From positions 3,145,501 to 3,209,500 of the forward strand of contig NZ_CP019419.1 of the NCBI RefSeq assembly GCF_001975665.1: a DNA stretch of 64,000 bases. The letters run 5' to 3'. Both the position numbers and the translations under genes were made by a program. Positions 2,242 through 41,556 of the stretch are shown one piece after another. The stretch's first letter is position 1. Every line of letters starts with the position of its first letter. The stretch is from Polaribacter reichenbachii. Lineage in GTDB: Bacteria; Bacteroidota; Bacteroidia; Flavobacteriales; Flavobacteriaceae. The notes below the pieces were generated by a model that was given only the letters and a program-made list of their open reading frames with translations, did not search any database and was not told the DNA's origin.

Positions 2242-2790
2242 ATGAGTAAGAAAGAAGATATAAAAGAAGAAGAAATTAGCAACGAGCAAGAAACTGCACA
2301 AGTAGAAGAAAATCAAGAAGTTGAAACAGAATCTGTAAAAGATGAGCCTACAACTGAAGAATTAGTTCAGGTAGAAAAAGATAAGTTTTTACGTCTTTTT
2401 GCTGAGTTTGAAAACTATAAAAAAAGAACAACTAGAGAAAGAATCGAATTATTTAAAACAGCAGGTCAGGAATTAATGACATCTTTACTGCCAGTTGTAG
2501 ATGATTTTGAGCGTGCTTTGACACATATCGAAGAAGATAAAGAAGCAGAAGAGTTAAGAAAAGGTGTTTTATTAATCTATAATAAATTCTACAACACTTT
2601 AGAGCAAAAAGGTTTATCTAGAATAGAAACTAAAACTGGAGATACTTTTGATGCTGAAATTCACGAAGCAATTACACAAATTCCTGCTCCGTCAGAAGAT
2701 TTAAAAGGAAAAATAATTGATTGTGTAGAAAAAGGTTACAAGTTAGGTGATAAAGTAATTCGTTACCCAAAAGTAGTAATAGGACAGTAA
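2242..2790 (+). CDS. grpE: Nucleotide exchange factor GrpE
   Basis: Exchange factor that releases ADP from DnaK, cytoplasmic. The 182-residue product has an acidic Glu/Lys-rich N-terminus, a long helical region (FLRLFAEFENYKKRT, the GrpE coiled-coil signature) and a C-terminal beta domain ending in VEKGYKLGDKVIRYPKVVIGQ-like sequence. I use the ATG at 2242; an in-frame TTG at 2188 lies in the preceding terminator and would add residues unlike the family. dnaJ follows 80 bases downstream on the same strand. dnaK itself is not in the window. Confidence 0.96.
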   Translation: MSKKEDIKEEEISNEQETAQVEENQEVETESVKDEPTTEELVQVEKDKFLRLFAEFENYKKRTTRERIELFKTAGQELMTSLLPVVDDFERALTHIEEDKEAEELRKGVLLIYNKFYNTLEQKGLSRIETKTGDTFDAEIHEAITQIPAPSEDLKGKIIDCVEKGYKLGDKVIRYPKVVIGQ

Positions 2791-2794
2791 TTAG

Positions 2795-2866
2795 TATTCA
2801 GTACACAGTAAGCAGTAGCCAGTAATTTACTGACTGCTCACTGAAAACTGCAAACTGCAAACTAAA
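2795..2866. repeat. Degenerate CAGT/ACTG-rich intergenic repeat
   Basis: The grpE-dnaJ gap is filled by repeated CAGT and ACTG words (CAGTACACAGTAAGCAGT, then TTTACTGACTGCTCACTG, then AAACTGCAAACTGC). The halves are partly complementary, with CAGTAA/TTACTG at the centre and GCAGT/ACTGC outside, so a hairpin can form. I have seen similar low-complexity runs between flavobacterial genes; no function is known to me. Confidence 0.6.
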
Positions 2867-2870
2867 AATA

Positions 2871-3992
2871 ATGGCAAAACAAGATTTTTACGAAATATTA
2901 GGCATTTCTAAATCAGCTTCAAAAGCAGAAATTAAGAAGGCTTACAGAAAAATGGCAATAAAATATCATCCAGATAAAAACCCTGGAGATACTACAGCAG
3001 AAGAAAATTTTAAAAAAGCTGCAGAAGCTTACGAAATTTTGAGCGACGAAAACAAAAAAGCAAGATACGATCAATATGGTCACGCTGCTTTTGATGGTCC
3101 TCAAGGTGGAGGAGGCTTTGGAGGTGGTGGTATGAATATGGATGACATATTTAGCCAGTTTGGAGACATCTTTGGAGGCGGTGGTTTTGGCGGCTTTGGT
3201 GGTGGAGGCCAAAGACAAGCTAGAGTAAAAGGGAGCAATATGCGTATTCGTGTTAAGCTTACTTTAGAAGAGATTGCAAAAGGAGTTGAGAAAAAAGTAA
3301 AAGTTCGTAGAAAAGTACAAGCAAGTGGTGTAAAGTATAAAACTTGTACAACTTGTAATGGTTCTGGTCAAGTTATGAGAGTAACCAATACTATATTAGG
3401 TAGAATGCAAACTGCAACCACTTGTAGTACGTGTTCTGGAGCAGGAGAAATTATTAGCTCTAAACCAAATGGAGCAGATGCTCAAGGTATGGTTGTAAAA
3501 GAAGAAACTGTACCAATTAATATCCCTGCAGGTGTAACAGAAGGTGTACAATTAAAAGTAGGTGGTAAAGGAAACGATGCTCCTGGTAAAAATTCAATTT
3601 CGGGAGATTTATTAGTTTTAATAGAAGAAATACCGCACGAAACTTTAAAAAGAGAAGGTACTAACATTCATTACGATTTATATGTAAACTTTTCTGAAGC
3701 CGTTTTAGGAACAAGCAAAGAAGTAGAAACCGTAACAGGTAAAGTAAAAATTAAAATTGATGCAGGTACACAATCTGGAAAAATTTTAAGATTAAAGGGT
3801 AAAGGTTTACCAAGTATAGAACGTTATGGAACAGGAGATTTCTTAATTCATACCAATGTTTGGACACCTCAAGAATTGAATAAAGAACAGAAACAATTTT
3901 TCGAAAAAATGTTAGATGATGATAATTTTTCACCAAACCCTAACAAATCAGACAAATCATTTTTTGAGAAGGTAAAAGATATGTTTTCTTAA
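2871..3992 (+). CDS. dnaJ: Chaperone protein DnaJ (two zinc motifs only)
   Basis: Hsp40 co-chaperone that stimulates DnaK ATPase. Residues 1-70 form a J domain with HPD at 33-35; residues 75-115 are a Gly/Phe-rich linker; the C-terminal substrate-binding domains extend to residue 373. The cysteine-rich region carries only two of the usual four CxxCxGxG motifs, at Cys159/Cys162 (CTTCNGSG) and Cys185/Cys188 (CSTCSGAG), enough for one zinc site rather than two. Otherwise length and order are normal for a type I DnaJ. It lies downstream of grpE, probably in the same stress-induced unit. Confidence 0.96.
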   Translation: MAKQDFYEILGISKSASKAEIKKAYRKMAIKYHPDKNPGDTTAEENFKKAAEAYEILSDENKKARYDQYGHAAFDGPQGGGGFGGGGMNMDDIFSQFGDIFGGGGFGGFGGGGQRQARVKGSNMRIRVKLTLEEIAKGVEKKVKVRRKVQASGVKYKTCTTCNGSGQVMRVTNTILGRMQTATTCSTCSGAGEIISSKPNGADAQGMVVKEETVPINIPAGVTEGVQLKVGGKGNDAPGKNSISGDLLVLIEEIPHETLKREGTNIHYDLYVNFSEAVLGTSKEVETVTGKVKIKIDAGTQSGKILRLKGKGLPSIERYGTGDFLIHTNVWTPQELNKEQKQFFEKMLDDDNFSPNPNKSDKSFFEKVKDMFS

Positions 3993-32703: not shown

Positions 32704-32778
32704 GGTGGTTGTAGCTCAGTTGGTTAGAGCGTCGGTTTGTGGTACCGAAAGTCGCCGGTTCGAATCCGGTCTTCCACC
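32704..32778 (+). tRNA. tRNA-His (anticodon GTG)
   Basis: Cloverleaf read by eye: D stem GCTC/GAGC, anticodon stem TCGGT/ACCGA with loop TTGTGGT (anticodon GTG), T stem GCCGG/CCGGT with loop TTCGAAT. The extra 5' G (32704) opposite discriminator C (32778) is the tRNA-His identity element. The acceptor stem GTGGTTG/CTTCCAC has two adjacent U-U mispairs (positions 5-68 and 6-67). Full CCA is not encoded. A terminator follows 17 bases later. Confidence 0.95.
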
Positions 32779-32794
32779 CAAAATACTTTGAATT

Positions 32795-32826
32795 AAAAAG
32801 CCTATCTTTTCAGATAGGCTTTTTTT
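32795..32826. terminator. Bidirectional terminator between tRNA-His and HTH gene A
   Basis: AAAAAGCCTATCT pairs with AGATAGGCTTTTT around a four-base loop; T runs on both strands. It ends tRNA-His transcription on plus and the 3' element of HTH gene A on minus. Confidence 0.9.
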
Positions 32827-32955
32827 AGGGGTAAAGGGGATTTAATTGATTCTTTCTTTAAATCAAATATTGAAGGTTTAACTCCCAAAAAAATACAATG
32901 CTAGGGAACAATATATTTTTCTTTTTGTTAAACTCTAAATTATACGATGGGCTCG
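32826..32955 (-). other. Conserved three-block 3' element, copy A
   Basis: Between HTH gene A and its terminator, three blocks recur in copy B: TAGGGGTAAAGGGGATTTAAT (32826 onward), CTAGGGAACAATA (32901-32913) and TACGATGGGCTCG (32943-32955), given here in plus-strand sense. On the minus-strand transcript they are C-rich (CGAGCCCATCGTA first). The intervening bases differ between copies. A 3'-UTR-derived RNA or DNA binding sites are both possible; no known family recognised. Confidence 0.6.
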
Positions 32956-33321
32956 CTAATTAGAATTCTTAACAGAATCTTCAATATTTGATAGTTTTTG
33001 AACAATGTCTTTAGACAACTCTTCAAATTGTTTCATAACTATGTTTTTTATATGCTGTTCAATAGGGGATTGAACTTTTAGGGGGACATAATTATTTTTA
33101 TATTTTCCATTGCCAGTAAATAACCACATTGGGTCTATACCTTCTATATTATCTATAATAGCAAGCAAAATAGTTTCATTAGGTTTTTTTGTATAATTAA
33201 CCACTGCACTTATCAATTGTTGCGAAACTCCAATCAGTTCCGAAAACTGTCTTTGATTTAATCCAGTATCTTTAAAAACCTTTATTACTCTATCAGAACG
33301 TTGTTTATCTTCATCTTTCAT
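32956..33321 (-). CDS. Small HTH (Cro/CI-type) repressor, copy A
   Basis: A 121-residue protein with an N-terminal XRE-type helix-turn-helix (LNQRQFSELIGVSQQLISAVVNY) and a C-terminal helical tail (EQHIKNIVMKQFEELSKDIVQKL) that probably oligomerises. The middle motif IDPMWLFTGNG resembles phage-repressor-like DNA-binding domains of Bacteroidota. It is a close paralogue of the gene at 33605. Its promoter holds an inverted repeat between the -33 and -7 regions, so autorepression is likely. No prophage genes are adjacent; a remnant or a domesticated regulator is possible. Confidence 0.88.
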   Translation of the reverse strand: MKDEDKQRSDRVIKVFKDTGLNQRQFSELIGVSQQLISAVVNYTKKPNETILLAIIDNIEGIDPMWLFTGNGKYKNNYVPLKVQSPIEQHIKNIVMKQFEELSKDIVQKLSNIEDSVKNSN

Positions 33322-33331
33322 AATAACACTT

Positions 33332-33354
33332 CAAATGTAGTAATAATTTACCAC
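33332..33354 (-). promoter_or_regulatory. Promoter and operator of HTH gene A
   Basis: Minus-strand -7 element TACATTTG (33332-33339) overlaps an inverted repeat GTGGTAA-N4-TTACTAC (33337-33354), one mismatch from the perfect version upstream of copy B. Confidence 0.65.
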
Positions 33355-33452
33355 AAACAATGTATTTTTATCAATAAATATGGTAATATTTTTAATAAAG
33401 TATTTAAATCGCTATTAATCAGTAATTTATGATATATAAAAATATGACTTGT

Positions 33453-33485
33453 AAAAAAAAAGCCTACAGAACGTAGGCTTTTTTT
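33453..33485 (-). terminator. Terminator of HTH gene B
   Basis: AAAAAAAGCCTAC pairs with GTAGGCTTTTTTT around AGAAC; it occupies the same place relative to gene B as the 32795 hairpin does to gene A. Confidence 0.88.
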
Positions 33486-33604
33486 AGGGGTAAAGGGGAT
33501 TTAATATAAATTAAAAACCAAATATTAAAGATTATAACCTAAATAATATTGCCTAGGGAACAATACAAATGAGATTTGTTAATTTTGTAATTACGATGGG
33601 CTCG
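33485..33604 (-). other. Conserved three-block 3' element, copy B
   Basis: Second copy of the element: TAGGGGTAAAGGGG at 33485, CTAGGGAACAATA at 33553-33565 and TACGATGGGCTCG at 33592-33604 (plus-strand sense). Block offsets are 68 and 107 bases against 75 and 117 in copy A, so the blocks are kept while spacers changed. In this copy TATTG and CAATA flank the middle block and could pair on the transcript. Confidence 0.6.
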
Positions 33605-33970
33605 TTAATTAGAATTCTTAACAGAATCTTCAATATTTGATAGTTTTTGAAGGATGTCTACAGACAATTCTTCAAACTCCTTTCTAACTATGTTTTTTAT
33701 ATGAAGCTCAATAGGGGATTCTACTTCTAGGGGTTCATAGTTATTCTTTTCAGAACCAACACCGGTTAACAACCACATTGGATCAATTCCTTTTATTTTA
33801 TCAATAATAGCGAGTAAAATAGCTTCATTTGGCTTCTTAGTATAATTAATTACTGCACTTACTAACTGTTGTGATACTCCAATGAGTTCAGCAAACTGTC
33901 TTTGGTTTAATCCAGAATCATTAAATACTGAAATTACTCTATCAGAACGTTTTTTATCTTCAATTTTCAT
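33605..33970 (-). CDS. Small HTH (Cro/CI-type) repressor, copy B
   Basis: A 121-residue paralogue of copy A: same helix-turn-helix (LNQRQFAELIGVSQQLVSAVINY), same IDPMWLLTGVG motif and an identical C-terminus (QKLSNIEDSVKNSN). I start at the ATG 33968-33970 (MKIEDKKRSDRV), which aligns with copy A; an upstream in-frame GTG would place the start near the mapped promoter. The recognition helix is nearly unchanged between copies, so both may bind the same operators and cross-regulate. Confidence 0.88.
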   Translation of the reverse strand: MKIEDKKRSDRVISVFNDSGLNQRQFAELIGVSQQLVSAVINYTKKPNEAILLAIIDKIKGIDPMWLLTGVGSEKNNYEPLEVESPIELHIKNIVRKEFEELSVDILQKLSNIEDSVKNSN

Positions 33971-33990
33971 AGCGTGAGGGACTAACACCA

Positions 33991-34019
33991 CAAATGTAGT
34001 AATTATTTACTACAAACAA
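33991..34019 (-). promoter_or_regulatory. Promoter and operator of HTH gene B
   Basis: On minus, TTG (34017-34019) and TACATTTG (33991-33998) form a -33/-7 pair 18 bases apart. Between and over them lies a perfect inverted repeat GTAGTAA-N4-TTACTAC (33996-34013), a likely binding site for the encoded repressor. Confidence 0.7.
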
Positions 34020-34043: not shown

Positions 34044-34790
34044 TTATTTTTTTAAAGCAGCAATGATTTCTGTCTTTTTCCTTGCTGACACAGGGATGTT
34101 AGAAGAATCAGTTAATATTAAATAACCTCCATCAGACTTGATAAATTCCTTAATGAAGCTCTTATTTACTAAATGACTCTGATGAACACGTAAAAAATTA
34201 ACCTCTTTTAAGATGTCTGAGTAGTACTTTAAGGTTTTAGAAACAAGAATTTTAGTGTTATCTAGTAAATAGAAGGTTGTGTAGTTATTATCAGACTTAC
34301 ATCTTACTATATTCTCAATATCAACAATAATAATCTTTTCTGATGTATGCAGTGAAAGTCTTTTTGGTTTTTCTGTAGGTTGTGTAACTAACTGTTTTAA
34401 AACACTTAATTGTTTTTGTCTTGGTTGAATTTGATCTTTAGCTTTGGCAATTGCGTTTGTTAATTCGTTAATAGAGTAGGGTTTAAGTATATAATCTATT
34501 GCAGCAAATTTAAAAGCTTTAATAGCAAATTCATCGCTTGCAGTAACAAATATTACCTTAGTATTTAAGTTGGGTACAATTTCTAAAATATCAAAACCAG
34601 TACCATCACCTAACATAATATCTAGAAAAAGTAAATCTGGTTTTAGTGTTTGTAATTGCTTAGAAGCCTCTACCACACTAGAAGCTTTACCTATAATTTC
34701 TATTTCTGGATGGTTTCTTTCAATATCATTAGATAACATTTCTAAAGCTTCAGGAATATCATCTACCACAAATGATGTAAACTTTTTCAT
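34044..34790 (-). CDS. LytTR-family response regulator
   Basis: A 248-residue regulator: receiver domain with Asp10/Asp11 and phospho-acceptor Asp57 (PDLLFLDIMLGDG), then a LytTR DNA-binding domain (about 145-245; RLSLHTSEKIIIVDIENIVRCKSD, LRVHQSHLVNKSFI). It begins 17 bases after the sensor kinase stop on the same strand, so the two form an operon. LytTR regulators bind direct repeats as dimers; targets are not evident here. Confidence 0.95.
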   Translation of the reverse strand: MKKFTSFVVDDIPEALEMLSNDIERNHPEIEIIGKASSVVEASKQLQTLKPDLLFLDIMLGDGTGFDILEIVPNLNTKVIFVTASDEFAIKAFKFAAIDYILKPYSINELTNAIAKAKDQIQPRQKQLSVLKQLVTQPTEKPKRLSLHTSEKIIIVDIENIVRCKSDNNYTTFYLLDNTKILVSKTLKYYSDILKEVNFLRVHQSHLVNKSFIKEFIKSDGGYLILTDSSNIPVSARKKTEIIAALKK

Positions 34791-34807
34791 AATTGGAGTA
34801 TTGGGTT

Positions 34808-36778
34808 TTAATAATCTGTTTTTAAAGGGATTCTAAAATTTACTTGAGTTCCTTTAATATCTTTATCTTCTTTAATCTCAGATATCTTTAAATTACTTTT
34901 GGTGCTAATTAAATATAATCGTTCTTTAGAAACCTTTAAAGCTACTGATTTATGATGAGAATGTTGCTTTTGTTGCTTAGATTGATGGATACCAATTCCG
35001 TTATCAATGATACTACAAAGTAAGAAATGATGTTTTACTTCAAAATTAATCATTATTTCACCTGTTTTGTTTTTCTGGAAAGCGTGTTCTATAGAATTCT
35101 CTACAAATGGCTGTATTAACATTGTAGGAATTAGTATTTCTTCTGGATCTATATTGTTTAATTGTGTGTTTATTGAATAGGTAAAAGTCTTAGCACTCAT
35201 TCTTTGCTCAAGTTCTATATAGTTCTTTAAAAGGTCTATTTCTTCTTGTAGAGTAATCTCTTCTTTTCTAGAATTGTTTAATATACCTCTTAATAAAACA
35301 GAGAATTTAGAAATGTTACTATTTAAATCATCTATTTTACCTGCATTCCCTAATGCTTTTATTCCGTTTAAAACATTAAAAATAAAATGTGGATTCATTT
35401 GTAATTGTAGAGCTTTTTGCTCTAATGTTAGTAAACGATTCTTCAATTTTAGTTGATCTACTTTTTCTTTATTCTTTTTATTGATGTTTTCGATATAGAA
35501 ATGGAGTGAAATGTAAGATATTAATAAGAATGCAATGACTACAGCAAAAATAAACCAAGCTTGCTTGTAAAATGGCGCATCAATTGTAAATGTGAATGAT
35601 TTAAAATCGCTTTCAAGAGTATTAATCTTTGATTGAACCTTGAAATGGTATTTACCTTCATTTAAATTAGGGAAATTAACAGTATTGTTAGTAGACCAAG
35701 GAGAAAGTTTACCATTTAGTTGATACCTATATTGTACTTTTTTAGGATTATATAAATCAATCGTTTTAAATGATATAGCAATGTTATTTTCTGAATTTGA
35801 GAGCTTTACATTATTCACCACAAATAAGGATTCTTGATTTTTATGGTTTACCTGTAGATTTTCAAATTGGATTAAAGGTCTATTTATTGGATTTATTTGA
35901 TTGTTTTTAATAACATATATCCCTTTATCTGAGGCAATATATTTAAAGCCTTTATTATCTTTAAAAACGGAATTAATTTGATTTGTTTGTAATGAATTGT
36001 ACTTATTTATTTTTTGTTTAAATGTAAAATATGGAAGTGAAAAAACTTCAATTCCGTTTGTTTTTGAAGTAACCCAAAGCTCATTTTTTAGTTTTTTTAT
36101 TGATGAAATATCGCTTATAGTTTCAATAATTTCTGATATAGAATCTTGTTTAATGATTAATAATTCATTTTTAGCTGTAGCTGCGATTATTGTATTTTGA
36201 AAAATCTCTAATGAATTTGTTTTTGTTTTATTTAATAATTTTATATTGCTTAAATTGAGTGTTTTGTCTAACTTAATTAAACCTTTACTTGAAGATAAAA
36301 AATATGAATTATCAATGTAAATAATATCGTTTATGATAGAAAAATCTATAGAAGAATTAATTTTAACAGGTGTTAAATTATCATTTTTTAAACTATAGAT
36401 TCCTTCTATAGTAGCAACATAAACCTCATTTTTATGAACCAATGTTTTTAGTACTTTTTTTGAGGTATATGTTTTTTCTTCAGATTTATTTTTAATGAAT
36501 AATCCATTTTCTAAACCAGAATAGATCACATCATTTTGATCAATAAAAAGATTTGTTGTTTTTAATTTATGAATTTGAATAAAATCGTCACCATCAAATT
36601 TTACCAAACCTTTTTCTGTGGCAATCCATAAATAACCAATTTTATCTTGTTTAATATCATAAACTATATTACTTGGCAATCCATCTTTGATGGTAATATT
36701 TTGAATTTCATTTTGAGCAACAATATTTATCGCAAAAAAAACAAGACTTAAAAAAATGTATTTTTTTAAAATAGACAT
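34808..36778 (-). CDS. LytS-type sensor histidine kinase with periplasmic propeller
   Basis: A 656-residue membrane kinase. A signal peptide (1-21) precedes a periplasmic beta-propeller built from two-component regulator propeller repeats (about 25-300; DKIGYLWIATEKGLVKFDG) and a Y_Y_Y domain (about 325-400; VQYRYQLNGKLSPWS). One transmembrane helix (408-428) leads to a coiled coil and His_kinase domain with phospho-acceptor His464 (LQMNPHFIFNVL), then an ATPase domain (ENSIEHAF, DNGIGI). Such sensors in Bacteroidota often watch polysaccharides or cell-surface state, but no transport or glycan genes are adjacent. Partner regulator is immediately downstream. Confidence 0.94.
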   Translation of the reverse strand: MSILKKYIFLSLVFFAINIVAQNEIQNITIKDGLPSNIVYDIKQDKIGYLWIATEKGLVKFDGDDFIQIHKLKTTNLFIDQNDVIYSGLENGLFIKNKSEEKTYTSKKVLKTLVHKNEVYVATIEGIYSLKNDNLTPVKINSSIDFSIINDIIYIDNSYFLSSSKGLIKLDKTLNLSNIKLLNKTKTNSLEIFQNTIIAATAKNELLIIKQDSISEIIETISDISSIKKLKNELWVTSKTNGIEVFSLPYFTFKQKINKYNSLQTNQINSVFKDNKGFKYIASDKGIYVIKNNQINPINRPLIQFENLQVNHKNQESLFVVNNVKLSNSENNIAISFKTIDLYNPKKVQYRYQLNGKLSPWSTNNTVNFPNLNEGKYHFKVQSKINTLESDFKSFTFTIDAPFYKQAWFIFAVVIAFLLISYISLHFYIENINKKNKEKVDQLKLKNRLLTLEQKALQLQMNPHFIFNVLNGIKALGNAGKIDDLNSNISKFSVLLRGILNNSRKEEITLQEEIDLLKNYIELEQRMSAKTFTYSINTQLNNIDPEEILIPTMLIQPFVENSIEHAFQKNKTGEIMINFEVKHHFLLCSIIDNGIGIHQSKQQKQHSHHKSVALKVSKERLYLISTKSNLKISEIKEDKDIKGTQVNFRIPLKTDY

Positions 36779-41369: not shown

Positions 41370-41405
41370 GACCCCACAGGTTTTTAAAACCTGTGGGGTC
41401 TTTTT
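41370..41405. terminator. Strong palindromic terminator (GACCCCACAGG type)
   Basis: GACCCCACAGGTTTT and AAAACCTGTGGGGTC form a perfect 15-bp stem with a one-base tip, then five T. The ACAGGTTTT/AAAACCTGT palindrome is one I have met between many flavobacterial genes, so this may be a repeat that doubles as terminator. Confidence 0.88.
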
Positions 41406-41556
41406 ATGCGAGTTTTCTATACTTCACGGCTTTTCGTTAAAAAATGAAATTATAACAATAATATCAACTAATTTTCAAACAAGTCTAGCCCAGATTGAAA
41501 CGACATCCTTTTTTCTTTTTCAGAAAAAAGATATAGTGTAAAGCTGGAAATAGCTT

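Follow-up and report, generated by a model that had tools for sequence, protein, structure and literature searches.

The DNA analysed here is a 64,000-nucleotide (nt) stretch of the 4.1-Mb genome of Polaribacter reichenbachii (G000:C1:3145501-3209500; hereafter the window, in which positions are counted), and its subject is a pair of tandem minus-strand genes for small helix-turn-helix (HTH) proteins that lie beside tRNA-His (32705-32779). The genes (unit 1, 32956..33321; unit 2, 33605..33970, with a further open start, GTG, at 33991) each encode a repressor-like protein of 121 amino acids (aa), and the two proteins matched PF01381 (HTH_3) with 26.3 and 30.5 bits at a cut-off of 23. An initial annotation of this DNA had described three identical blocks between stop codon and terminator of each gene, with offsets of 75/117 and 68/107, and sequence matching and alignment reproduced these exactly: block 1 (TAGGGGTAAAGGGG; 32826-32839 in unit 1, 33485-33498 in unit 2), block 2 (CTAGGGAACAATA; 32901-32913 and 33553-33565) and block 3 (TACGATGGGCTCG; 32943-32955 and 33592-33604), all on the minus strand, the transcript side of the HTH genes. 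Three features had been missed. The alignment showed that the identity runs on upstream through the last ~45 nt of both open reading frames (ORFs), the 3′ untranslated region (UTR) carries the reverse complement, or nearly so, of the HTH coding end, and CCCC runs also occur within the HTH coding sequences. When up to one mismatch was allowed, CCCCTTTACCCCTA was found in the whole genome only at the two unit sites.

The HTH coding end and the 3′ UTR were predicted to form one minus-strand structure in each unit, with −59.5 kcal/mol (z −8.3) for unit 1 and −46.5 kcal/mol (z −6.2) for unit 2; none of 200 dinucleotide shuffles was as good in either case. In the predicted closing stem the coding sequence ..TATCAAATATTGAAGAT.. 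is paired with the 3′ UTR, and C-rich hairpin loops are enclosed. From the fold and the pair counts, the 5′ arm of unit 1 (coding end ..LSNIEDS) was placed at 32977..32993 and its 3′ arm at 32861..32877, and the arms of unit 2 at 33626..33642 and 33516..33532, all on the minus strand. The blocks take up equivalent positions in the two predicted folds: block 3 forms a CGA[GCCCA]UCG hairpin with a C-rich loop (bracketed), block 2 presents UUCCCUAG in and beside a hairpin loop, and block 1 provides a single-stranded CCCCUUUACCCCUA (CCCCUUUACCCC) immediately 5′ of the intrinsic terminator, which was located by eye in the fold at 32796..32827 (−) in unit 1 and 33454..33485 (−) in unit 2. The suggestion of a 3′-end RNA with C-rich single-stranded motifs on the minus strand is borne out by this predicted fold. 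Its description as a 3′-UTR element holds as to the RNA and is incomplete as to its extent, since the coding end, the closing stem, CCCC runs in the ORF and stand-alone copies in five relatives also belong to it.

The number of hairpins varies among relatives, and the closing stem was therefore counted directly rather than with a covariance model. We selected 33 units that showed both arms; HTH units without an evident stem (those of G015 and G086, the second G105 copy and one of two G137 copies; related genomes are designated by G numbers) were left out of this count. The 12 inner pairs were standard in 31-33 of the 33 units, and changes on both sides of a pair, i.e. compensatory ones, were found in three lineages: the G109 stand-alone copy (two pairs), G106 and the G009 stand-alone copy. 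A pairing score of at least 10 was reached by 30 of the 33 units (G106, G114 and G021 scored lower); when the downstream DNA was mononucleotide-shuffled, 51 of 1650 rounds reached it. A strict stem pattern matched 17 of the 166 genomes of the genus, 10 at the HTH locus by coordinates and seven elsewhere, the latter being taken as chance; the pattern misses both units of P. reichenbachii itself, so there is room for further copies. In six genomes (G085, G084, G004, G096, G011 and G133) the second arm lies inside a convergent 108-aa ORF ending ..KLEAVSNIKGLAS, one member of which was tested and matched no Pfam family above cut-off. At loci L023-L027 and L029, the HTH ORF is about 30 codons longer, so that it overlaps with a convergent ORF of 108 aa (..LEAVSNIKGLAS), and the closing stem is an inverted repeat common to both gene ends.

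The motif carried by these structures is a short run of C. On both strands of the window, six of the nine CCCCTA sites lie on the sense strand of the two units (binomial ~6e-11), and the coding sequences hold two apiece (33063..33084 in unit 1 and 33712..33733 in unit 2, minus strand, by sequence match). For a wider view we analysed 27 RNAs, namely 22 of 25 HTH 3′ regions (three without a terminator in range were dropped) and five stand-alone copies; six units of the convergent type stand outside this set. The terminator finder cut one member, window_31045, down to 129 nt; for G109 a stretch of set length was used, its terminator being unchecked; and the G009 RNA entered the calculation of unpaired probability with 1011 nt and the run counts and fold positions with 407 nt. 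The 27 RNAs contained 104 runs of three or more C (CCC+) versus a single GGG+ run. The runs were followed by U at +1 in 85% and by A at +2 in 72% of cases. In the predicted folds 83 of the 104 runs were fully unpaired and 47 were in hairpin loops; their mean unpaired probability was 0.91, versus 0.35 for other C. The number, order and spacing of the C-runs vary elsewhere, so that the fixed three-block layout does not extend beyond the two units in which it was noticed. Protein-binding sites on double-stranded DNA, also put forward for the blocks, fit poorly with a signal that is strand-specific and mostly unpaired in the RNA fold, DNA binding as such not having been assayed.

Selection on CCCC appears to reach into the codons. 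We counted CCCC in 32 HTH coding sequences (L028, which has stops in the HTH frame, was left out, and L023 and L029 were entered as partial sequences) and derived the expectation by synonymous shuffling with the codon usage of the window. The observed count was 70 versus 1.93 expected, with a maximum of 10 in 2000 rounds, a contrast that is not to be read as a p-value because the HTH units share ancestry. At least one coding CCCC was present in 30 of the 32 sequences, and the two exceptions, G015 and G086, both have a stand-alone RNA. The same two were the exceptions at the SPI site, which is encoded by TCC CCT in 23 of 25 units; among the other serine codons in those frames, TCC accounted for 8 of 226. 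We conclude from the sequences that CCCC inside the codons is under selection.

Surroundings were fetched for the loci of eight genomes; for the remaining 20 HTH genomes the view was confined to short loci and matches of the strict stem pattern, and for P. reichenbachii to the window. In five of the eight (G009, G105, G086, G015 and G109) a stand-alone copy lies beside the HTH gene, with its own copy of the operator-promoter described below and no long ORF; none was found in the fetched surroundings of G188, G137 and G126. In the order given, the longest ATG-started ORFs of the five copies are 20, 14, 9, 8 and 4 aa (the last from a 340-nt piece) and the numbers of CCC+ runs are 8, 7, 8, 9 and 8. 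Four of the five have a terminator, and four (G009, G105, G086 and G109) have the closing stem, none being found for G015. These relatives with copies lacking the repressor gene point to the RNA itself as a working part.

The operator-promoter (TTTGTRGTAAAT..TTACTACATTTG) was found by pattern matching at 33332..33357 (G000:C1:3178832-3178857) in unit 1 and at 33991..34016 (G000:C1:3179491-3179516) in unit 2, both on the minus strand. In it an inverted repeat, the candidate operator of the HTH protein, overlaps TAnnTTTG, which we take to be a −7 element of the Bacteroidetes promoter consensus. With up to one mismatch, the pattern gave 28 sites in 21 of the 166 genomes of the genus, and their coordinates place every one of them at the HTH locus; the pattern in reverse, used as a control, gave no match in the 166 genomes. 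As far as the pattern goes, the HTH protein thus has no predicted target beyond itself and the RNA, and, with the ORF-less copies also considered, the locus probably has the RNA as its output. The protein itself was compared with known families. DicA was rejected as its identity (22.9 and 21.8 bits for NCBIfam DicA, cut-off 101), and anti-phage families showed only weak, generic HTH similarity.

A search with the unit 2 protein at E≤1e-5 had matches in 50 of the 166 genomes of the genus. We counted the HTH family in 28 of these, down to E ~3e-31; in the other 22 the matches were weak, with 1e-8 at best, and concerned different HTH proteins. Where one unit was represented by duplicate loci, the duplicates were dropped. 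Among 397 genomes at the family level, only P. reichenbachii itself had the HTH family (E≤1e-12; the genus contributes just three entries to that list). In the protein database, 232 HTH relatives were found at E≤1e-6 and, among the 120 matches listed, those with an organism name were from Polaribacter. The search by spaced blocks that had been proposed to find relatives was run with blocks 3 and 2 over the genome collection, and its one outside match was Polaribacter vadi, which has the same tandem HTH pair beside the same tRNA; the pattern proved too strict, as neither spacing nor order is constant. A search with block 1 by itself in P. reichenbachii and 58 relatives gave matches only in P. 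reichenbachii.

The search for the complement of the motif led us to membrane-protein-like genes of 72 aa that form a family and frequently stand in tandem (three copies in P. reichenbachii, eight in G009). Fifty distinct genes were collected from the stretches fetched in 20 genomes, a sample of the copies there. Within 22 nt before the ATG, CCCC+ was present in 37 of the 50 versus none of 43 long ORFs of the window, and CCC+ in 46 of the 50 versus 2 of the 43. CCC+ leaders were found in 25 of 26 genes in genomes with the HTH locus and in 21 of 24 in the others. The 72-aa set is present whether or not a genome has the HTH locus, which would therefore act as an additional regulator and not as a core part. 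Many of the 72-aa genes also have ACCCCUAAA or a similar sequence 5′ of the terminator, as the HTH units do. At the family level the 72-aa family was found in 1 of 397 genomes, that of P. reichenbachii (E≤1e-6; again just three entries of the list are from the genus). A genome-wide pattern, CCCC-N(1-9)-ATGAA, matched 77 times in P. reichenbachii versus 58 times when reversed, overlapping matches being counted separately, and gave no clean list of a regulon, several of ten fetched stretches being ordinary coding sequence or repeats.

Several further observations were made around these leaders. Tandem 72-aa arrays at L095 (G000:C1:2543500-2553500; at 2763, 5671 and 5946), L127 and L130 have CCCCC(C) 3-4 nt before the ATG and, in many cases, ACCCC(T/G)AA before the terminators. 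In G009, with its eight tandem copies, 8 kb contain 41 CCCC on the sense strand versus one on the other. At L172 (G000:C1:1127600-1130000) a candidate RNA of ~75 nt (780-860), with CCCCCC in the loop of a terminator-like hairpin, is followed at 1000-1385 by an ORF of ~39 aa that has CCCCCC in its leader, and by a second such hairpin with CCCCC in the loop. Genes for secreted-looking proteins of ~160-165 aa were seen at L096 (1008-1505, −), L130 (~2643-3122, +) and L095 (6433-6927, +), and two of the three adjoin 72-aa arrays. Those of L096 and L130 have ACCCCTAAA 5′ of a terminator-like hairpin, and that of L096 also has a C-rich leader and CCCCTAAA directly 3′ of the start codon.

We lean, with modest confidence, toward the reading that each unit is a dual-function RNA, at once the mRNA of an HTH autorepressor and a multi-site decoy that titrates a CCCC-binding factor. 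It draws on the predicted fold, the compensatory pairing, the selection on CCCC codons, the ORF-less copies, the operator-promoter restricted to the locus and the CCCC leaders elsewhere, all of them read from sequence. The co-occurrence of the two gene families counts in its favour as well, the HTH family being present in 11 of the 20 genomes with the 72-aa family versus 17 of the 146 without it. In this scheme the transcript of each unit would encode the small HTH autorepressor and expose motifs of the (A/U)CCCCUAA type, both in hairpin loops and in single-stranded stretches, to a factor that acts in trans and binds them, most probably an RNA-binding protein. The same factor would recognise CCCC(C) ~3-8 nt upstream of other start codons, such as those of the 72-aa membrane proteins, and its titration by the RNA would change the translation of the CCCC-leader set. 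The level of the RNA would be set by the HTH protein, which we suppose to bind the operator and to repress its own promoter and, where present, that of the stand-alone copy.

Several results weigh against this reading or limit it. The units are related, and the counts are therefore not independent. In dinucleotide shuffles CCC+ runs were already 0.77 unpaired, because these RNAs hold little G, and the fold accounts for only part of the accessibility. At least four HTH units, those left out of the stem count, lack such a stem, and a subgroup (G085, G084, G133 and others) retains it, with C-runs scarce or absent in the 3′ part; where the 3′ arm lies inside the convergent ORF, its conservation may serve coding. 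Three of the five genomes with a stand-alone RNA (G009, G105 and G109) retain CCCC in the ORF, so its loss is not obligatory. The operator pattern was derived from these very loci and would miss weaker sites, and it finds no site in 7 of the 28 HTH genomes. The leaders persist in genomes without the HTH locus (CCC+ in 21 and CCCC+ in 14 of 24 genes), so that the decoy would be dispensable for the 72-aa set, and of two more 72-aa members in P. reichenbachii, outside the 50, one has CCCC and the other no C-run. The comparison of co-occurrence between the HTH and 72-aa families ignores ancestry.

The main rival is a base-pairing small RNA (sRNA), in which the CCCCUAA loops would pair with UUAGGGG-like stretches of target mRNAs. 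The C-rich loops of RNAs of the RNAIII/LhrC type act so, and the motif copies are short, complementary to G and mostly unpaired; however, TTAGGGGT occurs 64 times in the P. reichenbachii genome versus 73 times for the reversed control (exact 8-mers only), among the 30 of 64 matches that were inspected, none is both in sense orientation and no more than 25 nt away from where an ATG-ORF of at least 90 aa starts, and some intergenic matches are CCCCUAA before terminator-like hairpins on the opposite strand. Bacteroidetes mRNAs naturally lack Shine-Dalgarno sequences (PMC6847099), and we consider this rival unlikely. The Flavo-1 RNA (RF01705) in the window (41483-41554, +) has no GGGG inside and thus offers no obvious partner for the CCCC loops; one GGGG lies upstream (41395-41398) in a hairpin. 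Rather unlikely, too, is that all CCCC transcripts are targets of one G-rich RNA or of one protein acting on stability, translation or 3′ ends, with the HTH mRNA as one more target and no decoy. This would accommodate the many 72-aa genes and the secreted-protein gene with ACCCCUAAA 5′ of their terminators and C-runs before their starts, as well as CCCC+ within 25 nt before the ATG in 10 of 32 HTH genes, but it leaves unexplained both the ORF-less copies, which have a promoter and several motifs and, except for one of the five, a terminator as well, and an operator common only to the HTH genes and these copies.

The two remaining explanations confine the element to its gene or deny it a function. 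A 3′ UTR structure that acts only in cis, stabilising or tuning the HTH mRNA and duplicated along with the gene, would agree with the attachment of the element to an HTH gene in most units seen and with a stem that includes coding sequence; the stand-alone copies and the strong codon-level constraint at the CCCC sites of the ORF make it improbable. That the units are a functionless recent tandem duplication, a product of gene conversion or a remnant of a mobile element is scarcely credible: the coding ends of the two copies are identical and tRNA-His, which had prompted the idea of a mobile origin, adjoins, but the units are not simple duplicates of one genome, the family being present in 28 of 166 genomes with compensatory stem changes, which agrees with the earlier view of blocks under selection. 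The unit 2 protein had no match in 50,697 phage and 72,556 plasmid records and IMG/VR gave no confirmed relative, and most related loci viewed have the same chromosomal neighbours (by eye, a regulator-like ORF in 10 and a deacetylase-like ORF in 12 of 13), which speaks against a mobile origin.

If the dual-function decoy is real, it has parallels among known systems. CsrB-type RNAs show a GGA motif repeatedly and so sequester CsrA, and the same motif lies near the start codons of other genes. Like CsrB/CsrC and RsmX/Y/Z, the RNAs described here are predicted to have several hairpins and carry one motif many times that also stands at start codons of other genes, CCCC in this case. Unlike CsrB and RsmZ, the majority of copies are mRNAs that encode an HTH repressor, and only 24 GGA were found in the 27 RNAs, four of them fully unpaired. 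CsrA (PF02599) was found in none of the 166 genomes of the genus, the same search being positive in 3 of 14 control genomes. With the GGA loops missing and CsrA absent, membership of the CsrB family was rejected, and the likeness is one of working only. The loops of the Firmicutes sRNAs RNAIII of Staphylococcus aureus and LhrC of Listeria are C-rich and pair with G-rich ribosome-binding sites; the C-rich motifs here are likewise repeated and placed in loops, whereas no UUAGGGG targets emerged from our limited check. The flaA mRNA of Campylobacter jejuni is a dual-function mRNA that titrates CsrA through two GGA leader loops (PMC4894983). A coding mRNA is proposed here, too, as a protein sponge, titration having been shown there and being supposed here, but the C-runs extend across the ORF, the 3′ UTR and some leaders, and relatives carry ORF-less copies. 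Within the same phylum, an RNA-binding protein and a multi-copy RNA are linked in the RbpB network of Bacteroides thetaiotaomicron, where FopS comprises 14 sRNAs sharing a 41-nt motif (PMC11697453); in contrast, the short motif here is repeated within one RNA. Bacteroides is said to lack Hfq, ProQ and CsrA (PMC12119571).

A broader and more tentative proposal, in which we place less than even confidence, is that Polaribacter has a CsrA/CsrB-like network built on CCCC(U/A) directly 5′ of start codons, whose protein is titrated by an autorepressed RNA, possibly a new kind of protein-soaking regulatory RNA; this RNA would be a coding repressor mRNA in some species, while others would have a purely non-coding decoy in addition. 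In the window, Rfam release 15 gave only RNase P, Flavo-1 and tRNA at gathering score, and at the locus and the stand-alone copies only the neighbouring tRNA, with no CsrB-type match at E≤1; the best non-tRNA match below threshold at the locus was BTnc231 (23.9 bits, cut-off 80.4). Among the titles and opening lines of abstracts listed for Polaribacter small RNAs and for C-rich, sponge, RNA recognition motif (RRM) and CsrA/CsrB topics in Bacteroidota, a scope without subscription papers and preprints, there was no description of such an element. Post-transcriptional control in Bacteroidota is little understood, and an RNA that is defined by its motif, exists both with and without an ORF and has its motif matched at start codons would give a handle on a missing RNA-binding protein. 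The locus further resembles an evolutionary transition from mRNA to non-coding RNA, in which compensatory pairing and codon-level selection show the part that is kept.

Two minor observations concern other regions of the genome and the neighbourhood of the units. L167 (G000:C1:3377000-3379800) is an intergenic region, long and repeat-like, whose repeated blocks include CCCCGACATACTATGGTTTACGTAGC; it has no apparent relation to the CCCC motif set. The flanking genes of the locus are presumably those of a BshB1-like deacetylase and UvrA, and directly upstream of the HTH genes lie a LytTR response regulator and a Y_Y_Y-type histidine kinase (34044-36778, −); the regulator-like ORF that flanks the HTH gene in related loci may be functionally linked to it.

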